Of a DNA stretch of 64,000 nucleotides, positions 7,385-19,092 are shown piece after piece (position 1 is the stretch's first letter; every line of letters begins with the position of its first letter). The position numbers and the translations under genes were made by a program. Where the stretch lies: assembly GCF_013391105.1 (NCBI RefSeq), contig NZ_CP058335.1, positions 3,038,001 to 3,102,000 on the forward strand, read 5' to 3'. Source of the stretch: Natronomonas salina. Lineage in GTDB: Archaea > Halobacteriota > Halobacteria > Halobacteriales > Haloarculaceae. Below the pieces are notes generated by a model. It was not told the origin of the DNA, did no database searches, and saw only the letters and a program-made list of their open reading frames with translations.

Positions 7385-10300
7385 TCAGCACTCCGACCAG
7401 CCGCAGGACTCGCAGGTCTTGCAGCCCTCGGAGTAGTACAGCGTCATGCTGGAGCACTCCGGGCACTCGGGGGACTCCCCGGACTCGATGAGCGACTGCG
7501 TGGCGTCGTCGGCGCCGGCCGCGTCGTCGTTCGGCGAGGCAGCCGACGAGCCTGAAGCGGACACCGCGCCGCCGTCTGTCTCAGGAGCGGAGGCGTCGCG
7601 CCGCGTCGCCTCGTCGTCGTCGGTGCCCTCCTCCTCGGCGATCTCGGTGAGGTTCTGCTGCTGGGGGTAGGCCTTGTCGACGTCGCCGTCGAGGTACCGC
7701 CGCATCGCGGTGCCGACGGCGTCCGGGATGGAGTTGATCTGCTCGCCCTTGTCCCAGGCGACCTTCGGCGACCGGATGCCCTGCAGCTCCTCGGCGATCT
7801 CCTCGGGGTCGACGCCCGAGCGCAGCGCCGTCGAGATGGTCTTCGCCAGCGCCTCGGTGAAGCTGGCGGTGAAGCCGCCGGAGTTGCCGATGTTGGCGAA
7901 CAGCTCGAACGGCCGACCCGTCTCGGGGTCCTCGTTGATGTTGACGTAGAGCTTCCCGTAGCCGGTGTCGATGCGCTGGGTCACGCCGTGCAGCACGTCG
8001 GGGCGGGGCCGCTTCTTCCCGAGGTCGACCTCGACGTCGAGGAGCCCCTCGAGGTCCTCCCCGAGGGCGGCCTCGACCTCCTCGCTGTCGAGGAAGCCCT
8101 CGATGCCGCCGAAGATCTCCTCGATCTGGGCGACGATGGCCTCGGCGGCCTCGTCCTCGTCGGCGAACTCGGCGTTCTTCGCGCGCGTGGTGAGCACCTG
8201 CTTCGAGCGGGTGCCGTCGCGGTAGTAGGTGACGCCCTTGCCGCCGTGCTCGTAGATGTACTCGAAGACCTCCTTGGCGTCCTCGACGGTGGAGTCGTTC
8301 GGCGCGTTGACCGTCTTCGAGATGGCGGAGTCGACGCCCGCCTGGCAGGCGACCTGGACGCCGGCGTGCTCCTTCGCGGAGAGGGCGCCCGTCGTCACGA
8401 ACAGCTCGCCGACCGCGTCCGGGACCGTCGTCAGCCCGGTGACGCCGTCGAACTCGTTGTTCGCCATCTGCTCTTGGGCCTCCTCCTTGACGGCGTCGAC
8501 GTCGATGTCGTTCTCCTCCAGGACGCGGAGGAAGTAGTCGTCGAACTCGACGAGCATCTCGTCGCCCTGGACGTCGTCGGAGACGTTCTTGTAGTAAGCT
8601 ACGTTGTAGATGGGCTCGCAGCCGCCGGTGGTGTTCCCGACCATCGAGGTGGTGCCGGTCGGCGCGATGGTCGTCGTGTTGTGGTTGCGGATCGGGAAGC
8701 CGTCGGCCCACTCGTCGGCGTCGAGGCCGGTCTGGTGCTCGAACCACTCGCGGTACTCGGTGGGGTCGGCGTACTTGCTGTTGTCCCACTCCTCGAAGGC
8801 GCCGCGCTCCTCGGCGAGCTCGTGGGAGGCCCACTTCGAGCCGTGGTTGATGTGCTTCATCAGCTGGCGGGCGACCTCGTTGGAGGAGTCGCTGCCGTAC
8901 TCCATGCCGAGCTGGATGTACAGCTGAGCCAGCCCCATCACGCCGAGGCCGATCTTCCGCATCTCCCGGACCTTCTGTTCGATCTTCGGGACCGGGAAGT
9001 CCGACATCGTCACGACGTTCTCTAGGAAGCGCGTGCCGAGTTCGATGCGGCGGTCGAACTCCGCCCAGTCGATACCCTCCTCGAGGAAGGCCTCGATGGC
9101 CGCCTCCGTCGAGTCGTACTCGTCGGCGTGGCGGTCCTGCCAGACGCGCCAGTCGGGGGCGTCCTCGGCGACCAGCGTCGAGAGGTTGATGTGCCCGAGG
9201 TTGCAGGCCTCGTACTCCTCGAGGGGCTGCTCGCCGCAGGGGTTCGTCGCGAGGATGCGGTGGTCGGGGTGCTCCTCGACGTCGAAGGAGTGCTCCTTGT
9301 TGACGCGCTCGAGGTAGATGACGCCGGGTTCGCCGTTCTCGTGGGCGCCCTCGACGATGTGGTCCCAGAGCTTCTCGGCGGGGACGGAGAGCTCCTCGCC
9401 GACCTCGACGTGCTCGCCGAGGCCGAACATGTCGTACAGTTCCTTCGTCTCGGGCGTCGCGACGTGGGCCTCGCCCGTGCGCGGGTTGGTGAAGGTGAAC
9501 TCCTCGCCGTTCTTCACGGCGTCCATGAAGTCGTCGGTGATGCCGACGGAGATGTTGAAGTTAGAGAGGTGCCCCTCGACGGCGTTCCGGAGGTGCTCGG
9601 GGACGCGGCCCTCGTCGTCGATGAGGCCGCGGGCCTCCTCGAGGGCGTCCGCGAAGGAGTTGTGCGTGAAGTCGTCGGGGTCGTTCAGCCGGAGGGTCTC
9701 CGCCAGCGAGACGTCCTTGTTCTTCGCGTGGAGGAACTGGATGACGTCGGGGTGGGAGACGCGCATGACGCCCATCTGGGCGCCGCGGCGGGCGCCGCCC
9801 TGCGCGATGGTCTCGCACATCTGGTCGTAGGTCCGCATGAAGGTGATCGGGCCGCTGGCGATGCCGCCGGTAGAGCCGACGGCGTCGCCGTAGGGCCGGA
9901 GCCGCCAGAAGGCGTAGCCCATCCCGCCGCCGCTCTGGAACACCTGGGCGGCCTCCTTGGCGGTCTGGTGGATGTCGTCGATGTCGTCCTCGGGGGAGTC
10001 GACGAAGCAGGCGGAGAGCTGCTGGAGTTCGTCGCCGGCGTTCATCAGCGTCGGCGAGTTCGGCATGAAGGAGAGCCGCTCCATCAGCTCCTGGAACTCG
10101 TCGGCGGTCGACTCGACGTGCTCGCGGATCTCGTCGGGGAGCTCGTCGACGAGCGTGTCGTAGGCGAACTTGTTGACGTTGTAGACCGAGAGGGTCGTCT
10201 CGGCGTCGGCGTCGGCCGTCACGCCCTTCCCGAAGACCTCCTCGGCGAGTTCGTCGCGGCGCGGGTGGTCGGGCTTGAGAAGGTCGGGGGTGACAGTCAC

Positions 10301-10540
10301 CTCGACGTCGCGCTTCTCGGCCTCGAAGACGGCCTCGGCGAGGGCGATGTTCTTCGCGACGCGGTCGAAGAGGTCCTCCTGCTCCTCGATGAGTTCGCCG
10401 TCGGCGTCCTTGCGGAGGTACCGGGCCGGCAGGATGTTGTGGTAGGCGTTGCCGGTGAGGCGGTCCTCCAGGGTCTCCCCCTCGGTCCGTTTGATCGGGA
10501 GCGTGATCTCGTCCGCGGAGGGGTCCGCGCCCGACATCAC
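7385..10540 (-). CDS. nrdJ: Adenosylcobalamin-dependent ribonucleoside-diphosphate reductase (class II)
   Basis: A 1051-residue class II ribonucleotide reductase that makes deoxyribonucleotides using B12. Conserved catalytic residues are visible: Cys178 in LSACFVDSPEDD and the radical-site motif N433-x-C435-x-E437 in NPCGEQ. The glycine-rich SGGGMGYAFWRLRP and TIAPTGTTSMV blocks are family hallmarks. An acidic low-complexity linker (~970-1020) leads to a C-terminal cysteine cluster (CPEC, then C-x-x-C-x-x-C and a final Cys) that re-reduces the active site or binds zinc. No intein is present although archaeal nrdJ genes often carry one. MSGAD one codon later is an alternative start. A TTATAG-like box lies at 10612-10618. 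Confidence 0.96.
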   Translation of the reverse strand: MMSGADPSADEITLPIKRTEGETLEDRLTGNAYHNILPARYLRKDADGELIEEQEDLFDRVAKNIALAEAVFEAEKRDVEVTVTPDLLKPDHPRRDELAEEVFGKGVTADADAETTLSVYNVNKFAYDTLVDELPDEIREHVESTADEFQELMERLSFMPNSPTLMNAGDELQQLSACFVDSPEDDIDDIHQTAKEAAQVFQSGGGMGYAFWRLRPYGDAVGSTGGIASGPITFMRTYDQMCETIAQGGARRGAQMGVMRVSHPDVIQFLHAKNKDVSLAETLRLNDPDDFTHNSFADALEEARGLIDDEGRVPEHLRNAVEGHLSNFNISVGITDDFMDAVKNGEEFTFTNPRTGEAHVATPETKELYDMFGLGEHVEVGEELSVPAEKLWDHIVEGAHENGEPGVIYLERVNKEHSFDVEEHPDHRILATNPCGEQPLEEYEACNLGHINLSTLVAEDAPDWRVWQDRHADEYDSTEAAIEAFLEEGIDWAEFDRRIELGTRFLENVVTMSDFPVPKIEQKVREMRKIGLGVMGLAQLYIQLGMEYGSDSSNEVARQLMKHINHGSKWASHELAEERGAFEEWDNSKYADPTEYREWFEHQTGLDADEWADGFPIRNHNTTTIAPTGTTSMVGNTTGGCEPIYNVAYYKNVSDDVQGDEMLVEFDDYFLRVLEENDIDVDAVKEEAQEQMANNEFDGVTGLTTVPDAVGELFVTTGALSAKEHAGVQVACQAGVDSAISKTVNAPNDSTVEDAKEVFEYIYEHGGKGVTYYRDGTRSKQVLTTRAKNAEFADEDEAAEAIVAQIEEIFGGIEGFLDSEEVEAALGEDLEGLLDVEVDLGKKRPRPDVLHGVTQRIDTGYGKLYVNINEDPETGRPFELFANIGNSGGFTASFTEALAKTISTALRSGVDPEEIAEELQGIRSPKVAWDKGEQINSIPDAVGTAMRRYLDGDVDKAYPQQQNLTEIAEEEGTDDDEATRRDASAPETDGGAVSASGSSAASPNDDAAGADDATQSLIESGESPECPECSSMTLYYSEGCKTCESCGWSEC

Positions 10541-13296: not shown

Positions 13297-13919
13297 GGTC
13301 TCCCTCCCGCGGCCTCGACGAACGCCGCGACCGCCTCCGAATCCTTCCGGCCGGGCTCGGACTCGACGCCGCTGGCGACGTCGACCGCGAAGGGGCGGAC
13401 AACCTCGACCGCCTCGGCGACGTTCTCTGGGGTGAGCCCGCCGGCCAGCACGACCGGCGACGACAGCGAGTCGACCAGCTCCCGGGTCCGCTCCCAGTCG
13501 TGGGTCTCGCCGGTGCCGCCGGCGCCCGCCTCGTCCAGGGAGTCGACGAGCAGCGCGTCCGCGACGGTGTCGTAGTCGGGCGCCTCCTCCGGCGAGGCGG
13601 CCTTCACGACGTCGCCGTGGACCTTCGCCGAGAGGTAGGCGAGGTCGCCCGGAGTCAGGTCGCCGTGGACCTGCACGACGTCCGGCTGGACGCGCGAGGC
13701 CAGGTCGACGGTCGCCTCCGGGCGATCCGGCATCGTCACGAGGACGGTCGTCACGAACGGCGGCGTCGCCCGGGCCAGTTCGACGGCCCGCTGGTCGGCG
13801 ATCTCCCGGGGCGTGTCCACCGAGACGTCGACGATGAAGCCGACCGCGTCGGCGCCCGCCTCGATCGCCGTCTCGAGGTCCTCGCGGGTGGTGACCCCGC
13901 AGACCTTCACCCTCGTCAT
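13293..13919 (-). CDS. trpF: Phosphoribosylanthranilate isomerase
   Basis: A 208-residue TIM-barrel enzyme for the third step of tryptophan synthesis. The N-terminus MTRVKVCGVTTREDLE carries the catalytic Cys, and VQVHGD, VLAGGLTPENV and VDVASGVESEPGRKD form the substrate phosphate and general acid regions. ATG at 13919 is set by the family N-terminus and overlaps the trpD stop (ATGA); the downstream end overlaps trpE. The frame remains open upstream inside trpD but that part is a shadow. Confidence 0.94.
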   Translation of the reverse strand: MTRVKVCGVTTREDLETAIEAGADAVGFIVDVSVDTPREIADQRAVELARATPPFVTTVLVTMPDRPEATVDLASRVQPDVVQVHGDLTPGDLAYLSAKVHGDVVKAASPEEAPDYDTVADALLVDSLDEAGAGGTGETHDWERTRELVDSLSSPVVLAGGLTPENVAEAVEVVRPFAVDVASGVESEPGRKDSEAVAAFVEAAGGRP

Positions 13920-14917
13920 GGCTCGAACTCGCGGAGCGACGCCAGCTGCGCCGCGGCCGCCCCGGAGTCGATGGCCTCGCGGGCGGCGTCGACGCCGGCG
14001 GCCAGGCTGTCGGCCTCGCCGGAGACGTAGATTGCGGCGCCGGCGTTCGCGAGGATGATGTCGCGCTTCGCGCCGCGGATCTCGCCTTCGAGGATGCCGC
14101 GCATGTCGCGGGCGTTCTCGGCGGGCGAGCCGCCAGCGACGTCCCCGAGGTCGTGGACGTCGATACCGAGGTCCGCCGGGGTGACGGTGTACTCGGTGAC
14201 GTCCTCGCCGTCGACCTCCGCGACGGTCGACTCGCCGTGGACGCCGATCTCGTCGAGCCCGGCGCCGTGGACCACCAGCGCCCGGTCGATGGCCATCCGC
14301 GAGAGGGCGTCCGCGAGGACGGGGACGAGCGCCTCGTCGTAGACGCCGACGACCTGCGCGTCGGCGCCCGCGGGGTTCGTCAGCGGCCCGAGGACGTTGA
14401 AGACGGTCCGCATGCCGAGTTCCTTCCGCGGGCCGATGACGGCCTTCATCGCCGGGTGGAAGACGGGCGCGAGCATGAACCCCATGCCGGTGTCCTCGAT
14501 GCAGTCCTCGACGGCCGGCGGTTCGGCGTCGATGGTGACGTCCAGCTCCTCGAGGACGTCCGCGCTCCCCGACGACGAGGACACCGAGTAGTTGCCGTGC
14601 TTGGCCACCGGGACGCCCACGCCGGCGACGACGAACGAGCTCGTCGTCGAGACGTTGATCGTGTCGTGGCCGTCGCCGCCGGTCCCGCAGGTGTCGACCA
14701 GCGGCGACCGGTCGGGGTCGATGGTGCGGGCCGCCGCTCGCATCCCCTCGGCGAAGCCGGCGATCTCCGACTCCGTCTCGCCCTTGGCGCGCAGCGCCGC
14801 CAGCAGCGCGCCGATCTGTGCCTCCGTCGCTCCCTCGAAGACGGCGGTGGCCGCCTCTCGCGCCTCCGCCTGCGAGAGGTCGCCACCCTCCGTCACCCGT
14901 TCGATGTAATCCTTCAT
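13916..14917 (-). CDS. trpD: Anthranilate phosphoribosyltransferase
   Basis: 333 residues, catalysing transfer of phosphoribose from PRPP to anthranilate. Typical glycosyltransferase family 3 motifs are present: DTCGTGGDG (PRPP binding), KHGNYSVSS, and NVLGPLTNPA. The start MKDYIERVTEGGDLS at 14917 matches the family N-terminus; the frame is open to 15013 but that part crosses the promoter. It is the first gene of trpDFEG; the order D-F-E-G with 4-nt overlaps throughout implies one tightly coupled transcript that provides most steps from chorismate to CdRP. trpA, trpB and trpC are not in the window. Confidence 0.94.
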   Translation of the reverse strand: MKDYIERVTEGGDLSQAEAREAATAVFEGATEAQIGALLAALRAKGETESEIAGFAEGMRAAARTIDPDRSPLVDTCGTGGDGHDTINVSTTSSFVVAGVGVPVAKHGNYSVSSSSGSADVLEELDVTIDAEPPAVEDCIEDTGMGFMLAPVFHPAMKAVIGPRKELGMRTVFNVLGPLTNPAGADAQVVGVYDEALVPVLADALSRMAIDRALVVHGAGLDEIGVHGESTVAEVDGEDVTEYTVTPADLGIDVHDLGDVAGGSPAENARDMRGILEGEIRGAKRDIILANAGAAIYVSGEADSLAAGVDAAREAIDSGAAAAQLASLREFEP

Positions 14918-14949: not shown

Positions 14950-14977
14950 TGTACAAATAAGTACACCAGCTTAAGCC
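14950..14977 (-). promoter_or_regulatory. trpDFEG promoter with TGTAC inverted repeat
   Basis: Upstream of trpD is a TATA-like GGCTTAAGC (14969-14977, minus strand) followed after a few bases by a perfect inverted repeat TGTAC-(6)-GTACA at 14950-14965. The repeat covers the space between the TATA box and the predicted transcription start, an ideal site for repression. Its half-sites resemble the TGTACA boxes bound by the archaeal repressor TrpY in Methanothermobacter. Regulator identity here is inference. Confidence 0.55.
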
Positions 14978-15040: not shown

Positions 15041-16582
15041 TCACTCCCCGGTCGGCGCGGGGAACGCGGGGGCGTCGACGAACTGCGGGAGGCCCCGGGT
15101 GCCCGGCTGGCACTCCTCGCCGTCGCAGTCGACGACGACGCCCAATCGCTTGTTCAGCAGCCGCACGTCGTTCTCGGCGAAGGCGGTCGTCCCGTTGTCC
15201 TGGTAGCGGACGCGCGGGTCGACCGCGTACTCCTTCTCGCCGTCGTGGAGCGCGAGCTCCTGGTCGACGTCGCCGAACTGCGAGGTCCCGAGCACGCCGG
15301 TCATCCCGGAGACGCCGGGACCGTGTTCGTTCGAGTCGTTCAGCGTCGCCTCGTAGTAGATCAGCACGACGCCGCCGCCCTCGTACTGGCCGCTGCGAGC
15401 GACGCTCACGTCGCCGGCCGGCTCGACGCCGTCATCGGCGGGGTTGTACGACGGATCGTTCGGGTCCTGGACATCGCACTGGTTCGGGGCGGCGCCCTCG
15501 ACGATGCCGGCAGCGGCGCCCGGCGTCACGACGCTGGTCGGCAGCCCCGGCGGCTGGGCTTCCTGTGGCAGGTCGCTGACCCACGGCACCTGCTCGTAGG
15601 GCACGTTCTCGTTGACCTGCTCGGGGACGTCGGTGCAGACCTCCTGCGGGAACGGTCCCTCGGTCTCCTCGCTGCTCTCGTCCTCCGCGGTCGGCGCTGG
15701 GATCGCGGGGTAGTCGGCGAACTGCGGGAGGCCCCGGGTGCCCAGCTGGCACTCCTCACCGTCGCAGTCGACGACGACGCCCAGGCGCTTGTTCAGCAGC
15801 CGGACGTCGTTCTCGGCGAAGGCGGTCGTGGCGTTCTCCTGGTAGCGGACGCGCGGGTCGACCGCGTACTCCTTCTCGCCGTCGTGGATGGCCAGTTCGG
15901 TGTCGGCGTCACCGAACTGCGAGGTCGCGAGACCGCCGACCATCCCGGAGACGCCGGGGCCGTGCTCGTCGGACTCGTTCAGCGTCGCGTCGAAGTAGAC
16001 CAGCGCGACGCCGCCGTCCTGGTACTGACCGGAGCGGGCGACGTCGTAGTCGACCGCGGGATTCACCTCTTCCTCGGTCGGGTCGTAGGAGGGGTCGTTC
16101 GGGTCCTGGACGTCACACTGGTTGGGGGCGGCGCCCTCGACGATGCCGGCAACGGCGCCGGGCGTCACGACGCTGGTGGGAACGCCCGGCGGTTGGGCTT
16201 CCTGTGGCAGGTCGCTGACCCACGGCACCTGCTCGTAGGGCACGTTCTCGTTGACCTGCTCGGGGACGTCGGTGCAGACCTCCTCCGGGACCGGTTCGTC
16301 GTCGCTGCTCTCCTCGGGGTTCAGTTCTGGGGTATCGTCCGCCTCCGGCGCTTCGACGCCGGGGTCGGTCGTCTCGTTCGCGTCCACGTCTCCCTCGACA
16401 TCGAGGCCGTCCTCGCCGGCAGACACGGAGACGTCGTCGCCGACGTCGACATCGACGCCGTCGCCGTCGAAGGAGACGCCAGTGCCATCGGCCGCCGCGA
16501 CCGGGGCCGCGGTGAACCCGATCACGAGCACCGTCGCGATCAGACACGACACCGTCGCGTTCGCTATACTATTGGTACCCAT
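15041..16582 (-). CDS. Secreted protein with two near-identical tandem domains
   Basis: 513 residues. A Sec-type signal peptide (hydrophobic core ~12-27, AAPVAAA) precedes an acidic linker rich in Asp, Val and Gly (32-100). Two ~200-residue units follow (about 101-300 and 314-513), nearly identical over long blocks such as EVCTDVPEQVNENVPYEQ and YAVDPRVRY, each with four Cys (CTD, NQCD, DCDGEECQ). The C-terminus is short and polar with no anchor, so the protein is probably released or cell-wall associated. Domain function unknown. The repeats are offset by exactly 639 nt (213 codons) in the DNA. A TATATAAA box lies at 16641-16648. Confidence 0.8.
   Translation of the reverse strand: MGTNSIANATVSCLIATVLVIGFTAAPVAAADGTGVSFDGDGVDVDVGDDVSVSAGEDGLDVEGDVDANETTDPGVEAPEADDTPELNPEESSDDEPVPEEVCTDVPEQVNENVPYEQVPWVSDLPQEAQPPGVPTSVVTPGAVAGIVEGAAPNQCDVQDPNDPSYDPTEEEVNPAVDYDVARSGQYQDGGVALVYFDATLNESDEHGPGVSGMVGGLATSQFGDADTELAIHDGEKEYAVDPRVRYQENATTAFAENDVRLLNKRLGVVVDCDGEECQLGTRGLPQFADYPAIPAPTAEDESSEETEGPFPQEVCTDVPEQVNENVPYEQVPWVSDLPQEAQPPGLPTSVVTPGAAAGIVEGAAPNQCDVQDPNDPSYNPADDGVEPAGDVSVARSGQYEGGGVVLIYYEATLNDSNEHGPGVSGMTGVLGTSQFGDVDQELALHDGEKEYAVDPRVRYQDNGTTAFAENDVRLLNKRLGVVVDCDGEECQPGTRGLPQFVDAPAFPAPTGE
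15051..16284. repeat. Intragenic tandem duplication, 639-nt period
   Basis: Copies lie at about 15051-15645 and 15690-16284; landmarks such as cggtgcagacctcct (15631 and 16270) and gtcggcg (15051 and 15690) recur at a 639-nt offset. Long stretches are identical even at third positions, indicating a recent duplication or ongoing gene conversion. Confidence 0.85.
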
Positions 16583-16837: not shown

Positions 16838-16912
16838 GGGTTCGTGGTCTAGGCTGGTTATGACACCTCCTTGACATGGAGGAGGCCGGCAGTTCAAATC
16901 TGCCCGAACCCA
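16838..16912 (+). tRNA. tRNA-Val (GAC)
   Basis: A 75-nt cloverleaf: acceptor GGGTTCG (16838-16844) with CGAACCC (16905-16911), discriminator A; anticodon stem CCTCC/GGAGG around loop TTGACAT with anticodon GAC at 16873-16875; T arm GGCAG/CTGCC. No intron and no encoded CCA. It borders an AT-richer stretch with tiny genes. Confidence 0.95.
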
Positions 16913-17014
16913 CTCCCTTATTGCGGTTCCACCTCGGATACGGCGGATAGACCACTTTCACTCCGCTTATCTCGGATTTACGGTCCGTCGTGTCTTGCAC
17001 GAAGGTATCCGACC

Positions 17015-18510: not shown

Positions 18511-19092
18511 CTACAGCGCCTGCAGTTCGCCGATCGGGAGCCCCTCGACGGGATCGACCGGGAGGTCGCCGTCGGGGAGATCGTCACCCGGCAGGTCTTC
18601 GCTCGGCAGTTCGTTGCCTGGGAGTTCGGGAACCTCTTCACCCGGCACCCCGTCGCCCGGCAGGTCATCGCCCGGGTTGTCGGGAATCGGGTTCGCTCCA
18701 CCACCCGGTGCGACGTAGTCACAGGCCTCCTGAGGGTTCTGCGCCGATTCGGGGCTGACATCGCAGGAGACGCTCCCGTTGATCGTCTCCCCGGCGACCC
18801 CGCCCGCACCCGCAGCGGAGACGTTCAGGGTCTGCTCCGCCGCGTCGCCGCTGACGGCGCCGCTCCCCTCTGCGCTGCCCGGTCCGCCGTCGACGGCGAC
18901 GGCACCGCTACCACTGCCGCCGCTGTCGCTGGTTTCGCTATCGAGCTCTACGTCCACCACCGCGTCGCTATCCTCCTCGGCTACTCCGACCGGACCGAGG
19001 CCGACCGCGGCGGCCGATCCGGCGAACATCGCGACGACGCCGAGCGCCGCCGCCAGCGTCACGACCGTCCGCACCGTGATTCGTGCTGTCAT
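18511..19092 (-). CDS. Secreted low-complexity protein with LPGD-type repeats
   Basis: 193 residues. An N-terminal signal peptide (hydrophobic ~9-28, AGSAAA) is followed by a Ser/Gly/Ala-rich acidic segment (40-100), a short part with two Cys (SCDV, EACDY), and a C-terminal run (~138-185) of degenerate five- to six-residue repeats such as DDLPGD, EEVPELPG, NELPSED and GDLPVD. No membrane anchor at the end. It is probably an extracellular or wall-associated protein. A perfect AACTAA/TTAGTT repeat at 19098-19116 lies directly upstream of the ATG. It shares cell-surface character with the 15041-16582 protein but not sequence. Confidence 0.7.
   Translation of the reverse strand: MTARITVRTVVTLAAALGVVAMFAGSAAAVGLGPVGVAEEDSDAVVDVELDSETSDSGGSGSGAVAVDGGPGSAEGSGAVSGDAAEQTLNVSAAGAGGVAGETINGSVSCDVSPESAQNPQEACDYVAPGGGANPIPDNPGDDLPGDGVPGEEVPELPGNELPSEDLPGDDLPDGDLPVDPVEGLPIGELQAL

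Follow-up and report, generated by a model that had tools for sequence, protein, structure and literature searches.

Gene conversion as a probable influence on the two units of a predicted secreted protein from haloarchaea

Within a stretch of 64,000 nucleotides from Natronomonas salina (hereafter the window; positions 3,038,001 to 3,102,000 of contig NZ_CP058335.1), the gene between trpD and tRNA-Val(GAC) encodes a protein composed of two similar units, which within a genome are more alike than the corresponding units of different species, a pattern that fits concerted evolution. Our best overall explanation, to which we assign a probability of about 0.6, combines an evolutionary history with an exported protein that makes contacts outside the cell. 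The two-unit form would most likely have arisen once, in the ancestor of the window genome (G000), G002 and the group comprising G016, G001 and G010; gene conversion between the in-frame copies would keep their Cys- and Pro-rich ends alike within a genome and would occasionally involve paralogous genes elsewhere on the chromosome, and the central segment would diverge or be replaced as a short tract. The evolutionary part, a two-unit gene of single origin homogenised by conversion, appears fairly probable from the sequence comparisons; the role in extracellular contact, our preferred functional reading, is tentative.

Gene, family and chromosomal address

A repeat finder recovered the two-copy repeat with a 639-nt period (213 residues) that the initial annotation had described, placing the copies 639 nt apart with 89% identity over a 300-nt reference copy. 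That annotation had also mentioned a conserved set of Cys and a shared stretch; each unit holds four Cys and EVCTDVPEQVNENVPYEQ, and two N-glycosylation sequons per unit lie at equivalent positions in A and B (Table 1). Its description of the protein as secreted agrees with a Sec-type N-terminus, in which inspection revealed neither twin arginine (RR) nor a lipobox Cys, and export is thus a prediction from sequence. The composition is acidic (D+E 20% versus K+R 3%), and the protein has no C-terminal transmembrane segment. Upstream of the gene, CCTATATAAA resembles the archaeal promoter motif, and we take it to be a putative TATA box.

Table 1. Features of the two-unit gene and its locus, in window coordinates
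Feature	Position	Strand	Remarks
Two-unit gene, predicted secreted protein	15041..16582	-	ATG start, 513 aa; two-unit orthologs in G016 and G002
Predicted Sec signal peptide, residues 1-30	16493..16582	-	hydrophobic; cleavage site placed by eye
Acidic Gly/Asp/Glu-rich linker, residues 31-99	16286..16492	-	from sequence
Unit A, residues 100-298	15689..16285	-	Cys 103, 156, 273, 278; sequons N202, N250
Unit B, residues 313-511	15050..15646	-	Cys 316, 369, 486, 491; sequons N415, N463
Variable middle, unit A (residues 161-230)	15893..16102	-	from alignment; borders set after viewing it
Variable middle, unit B (residues 374-443)	15254..15463	-	from alignment; borders set after viewing it
TATA-box-like CCTATATAAA	16641..16650	-	about 60 nt upstream of the two-unit gene
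trpD	13916..14917	-	locus marker; first of trpD-F-E-G downstream of the two-unit gene
tRNA-Val(GAC)	16838..16913	+	other border of the locus

The family had initially not been recognised, and this held in the searches: neither Pfam nor NCBIfam contained a family above cut-off for the window protein or for nine relatives, PDB sequences gave no match to the domain, and none of the paper titles listed in literature searches names this gene family. Plasmids, phages and viral contigs likewise lacked a match to the domain, for which reason a mobile-element origin was set aside. Within the genus Natronomonas, 10 of 20 genomes match, and a profile search of the Haloarculaceae found the family in 16 of 146 genomes and 4 of 22 genera; a unit is encoded on a contig of Natronomonas sp. 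CBA1123. An order-wide search, in which at most the eight best candidates per genome were scored and genomes were drawn evenly from a larger group, detected at least 6 matching genomes among 392, all of them Haloarculaceae, absence outside this family not being firm under that design. Four Cys occur in 29 of 29 domains of a set from which L005 and L029, both partial, and L008, which is close to L007, were omitted, a count that partly reflects the use of these Cys to delimit the domains.

Three genes of genus g39 (L113, L117, L119) appear by eye to encode half-units, with the C-x4-C part and without the Pro-rich start, which suggests that the C-terminal half may be a module of its own. Two further features were considered and dropped: a CARDB-like N-terminal domain in G017-type relatives, for which Pfam gave no support, and diagnostic residues for A and B (FD versus YE before the TLN/TAN motif), from which G002 and G001 deviate.

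A family gene adjoins trpD in all 16 matching genomes, and tRNA-Val(GAC) lies on the opposite side in 15 of them, the exception being G007, where the contig ends first; in G001 the two sides of the locus are on two contigs. Seven Natronomonas genomes have an empty site, with only about 150-200 bp from trpD to tRNA-Val, and hold no family gene anywhere; the other three of the 20 have no trpD match, or a trpD fragment at a contig end. The locus switched between occupied and empty at least twice on the trp tree, and a second family gene stands in tandem in G016, G010, G001, G027, G120 and three genomes of genus g39. Missing from every curated library consulted, the family came to light in Haloarculaceae alone in these searches, and its chromosomal address is a fixed one, prone to gain and loss.

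Several observations around this address stand on their own. An inverted repeat upstream of trpD (TGTAC-TTATTT-GTACA, 14950-14965, minus strand) is possibly an operator. The gene at 18511-19092 (minus strand) encodes a secreted-looking protein of 193 residues that contains two paired Cys and ends in a tail rich in Pro, Asp and Gly. G016 and G001 have relatives of it close to tRNA-Val (L051, L059), and its Cys-pair stretch resembles, by eye, the N-terminal part of L011, the family protein of G033. The ribonucleotide reductase at 7385-10540 is free of an intein in the window genome; that of G015 (L055, 13340-17665) contains one with LAGLIDADG and splicing domains, and split matches suggest insertions in G017, G011 and G007 too.

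Likeness of the two units

Over 199 aligned codons, units A and B of the window gene are 88% identical in DNA (74 differences in 597 nucleotides) and 84% in protein. The initial annotation called them near-identical; they are indeed repeated and similar, but the term overstates the case, since 22 of 69 codons in the middle part differ in the encoded amino acid, compared with 10 of 128 elsewhere in the unit (Met and Trp codons that are identical were not counted). In a tree of whole units, A and B pair by genome in G000 (100/99) and G002 (100/100). Those of G016 do not pair in the best tree, where they fall into a group of unclear branching order with G010 and G001, and forcing them together was not rejected (p-AU 0.155). 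Grouping all three A units in one clade was rejected (p-AU 9e-67), as was doing so for the three B units. Between A and B, dS is 0.27 in G000, 0.50 in G016 and 0.32 in G002, the value for G000 being held down by a strong codon bias (GC3 0.93-0.95) that limits silent divergence; corresponding units of the three genomes differ by 0.69-1.2, and trpE-F-D by 0.59-0.79. Copies are clearly closer to each other than to their orthologs in G000 and G002, and G016 is equivocal in this respect.

The longest exact run shared by A and B was compared with those in 5000 shuffles of the mismatch positions. It measures 91 nt in G000 (reached in one shuffle), 89 nt in G016 (reached in none) and 69 nt in G002 (reached in 326, which is not unusual), so that tract-like identity exceeds chance in G000 and G016 and does not in G002. 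When only silent codons were considered, the observed run was reached in 379, 43 and 1441 of 5000 shuffles for G000, G016 and G002, respectively, a non-significant result for G000. Conversion is well supported in G016 because of its exact tract, the evidence in G000 is suggestive, and in G002 the argument comes solely from the tree. According to passages in two sources, gene conversion between genome copies is efficient in the polyploid haloarchaeon Haloferax volcanii (PMC11276520, PMC4056108); where these passages deal with haloarchaea, they treat mainly engineered loci. By analogy, a machinery like that of Haloferax volcanii may act on the window gene.

The same pairing of units by genome would be expected if each lineage had duplicated its unit independently and recently, A and B being merely young copies for which conversion is unneeded. 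Unit number is indeed labile: a comparison across genomes (the initial annotation had proposed one among strains) yielded one unit in G010, G017, G011, G013 and G015, two in G000, G016, G002, G033 and G120, and three in G027 (G001, with a contig break inside the repeat, and G007, with a cut copy, were left uncounted), so that it differs between species and implies at least three changes when 10 genomes are placed on the trp tree, and other genera hold separate two- or three-unit genes. However, the junction between the units (an acidic stretch, GPFP and xxVCTD) is identical in all three two-unit genes from G000, G016 and G002 and is thus common to three lineages, and in G000 and G016 the A and B copies diverge unevenly over their length. 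Moreover, over the first 70 codons G002_B is closer to G016_B (pS 0.234) than to G002_A (0.292), though the 5' tree pairs the two G002 units (91/95). Of the two options initially offered, recent duplication or homogenisation, conversion is the better, and recency is a weak proposition because of the A/B dS values and because the codon bias of G000 lowers silent divergence. We regard independent duplications as a real, if rather less probable, possibility, and favour a single-origin gene homogenised by conversion.

The central segment and exchange with paralogs

Amino-acid differences between A and B concentrate in domain residues 61-130, a segment whose borders were chosen after inspection (p = 3e-5 in G000, p = 2e-6 in G016), and silent differences concentrate there as well (p = 0.005 and p = 0.012); the middle of G002 had no such enrichment (silent p = 0.16, amino-acid p = 1). 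The dN/dS between the copies of G000, another comparison suggested at the outset, is 0.81 in the middle, with values of 0.11 and 0.32 for the 5' and 3' parts, respectively. The middle is relaxed or diversifying, its dN/dS not exceeding one.

Trees of the individual segments were built from 23 rows (13 short-type and 10 long-type domains, those of G027 and G033 being omitted), and at this segment length many of their branches are open. The short and long subfamilies separate in the 5' segment (100/99) and, less firmly, in the 3' segment (94/94). In the middle segment, the long paralog L018 of G002, located 0.68 Mb from the two-unit gene, nests with the two units of its own genome (99/100); a tree that keeps the short type as one group was rejected (p-AU 1e-67). 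The best-window identity of L018 is 87% to its own genome versus 64% to any other clade (+22.6 points), and over residues 61-115 it matches the G002 units at 75-91%, against at most 69% for six other short units compared. This was the largest excess in a scan of 60 gene-by-clade pairs, followed by L024 with G000 (+13.0), both within their own genome; the third, L014 with G000 (+10.3), was not. The middle of L018 in G002 thus clearly has the appearance of an ectopic gene-conversion tract. A related comparison concerns G016 and G001, whose flanking genes differ by a dS of 0.16-0.20 and whose B units differ by 0.59, with the middle no different from the rest of unit B (silent p = 0.15). In another long paralog of this pair, the middle is raised in amino-acid differences (p = 0.004) and not in silent ones (p = 0.41).

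One could take these signals for programmed diversification, in which paralogs donate the central segment to an expressed gene in the manner of pilin or vls systems; the ectopic tract in G002, the weaker own-genome signal in G000 and the raised middle divergence of the tandem paralog between G016 and G001 (amino-acid p = 0.0006, silent p = 0.018) would all accord with it. Yet no silent cassettes were found among 26 genes, an N-terminal hydrophobic segment being present in 23 of the 23 with their 5' end in the sequence (three more are truncated by the end of a contig), and the tracts look old, as the longest exact match between the short and long subfamilies does not exceed 29 nt. Such a programme is highly unlikely in our estimation. 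A looser form, an archaeal diversification system in which this dispersed secreted four-Cys family would reassort its central recognition segment by conversion while its ends stay uniform, is unlikely as well; if true, extracellular specificity would shift rapidly at a fixed spot between trpD and tRNA-Val. Under the preferred reading, conversion between the units with occasional exchange, the variable middle points to the part of the protein likely to be under changing selection. An assembly artefact, the initial worry, or a collapsed or expanded repeat is barely conceivable: the G001 assembly does break within the repeat (contigs C50 and C74), but G016 and G002, in one or two contigs each, hold a matching two-unit gene at the corresponding locus.

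Possible function and comparison with known systems

We infer an exported acidic protein that would present two copies of a four-Cys domain with two disulfides and is probably N-glycosylated, just as we infer conversion over repeated duplication. The two copies would raise valency, and the middle part may set the specificity of an extracellular contact. A second short-type copy (L013, G000:C1:1362477-1363079) has a Gly/Ser/Asp-rich stalk and a C-terminal transmembrane-like helix, a combination that supports an extracellular placement of the domain. AlphaFold models based on three-row alignments had no confident fold (pLDDT 30.6 and 32.3), and the gene neighbourhood was uninformative on function, with the trp operon and a tRNA next to the window gene and elongation factors around another copy.

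Haloarchaeal secreted and surface proteins of the S-layer glycoprotein type are acidic, exported by Sec and furnished with sequons. The window protein shares the acidic composition, the Sec-type N-terminus and the sequons, and its paralog L013 has an anchor-like C-terminus; unlike this type, the window protein lacks a C-terminal anchor and matches no curated family. In pilE and vlsE, gene conversion generates antigenic variation. The window family resembles them in its conserved ends, variable middle and exchange with dispersed paralogs, but it has no silent cassettes and gives no sign of changes inside a single strain, so that the phase variation raised initially is no more than a possibility. 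A further parallel is concerted evolution by gene conversion, as a passage in PMC11276520 describes for rRNA operons, tuf and nif. As in those systems, copies within a genome are closer than orthologs, tracts are short and identity is uneven; in contrast to them, the window case consists of two in-frame domains of a single, probably secreted archaeal protein with a divergent middle, and the family would thereby represent a naturally occurring haloarchaeal example of conversion between copies that encode protein.
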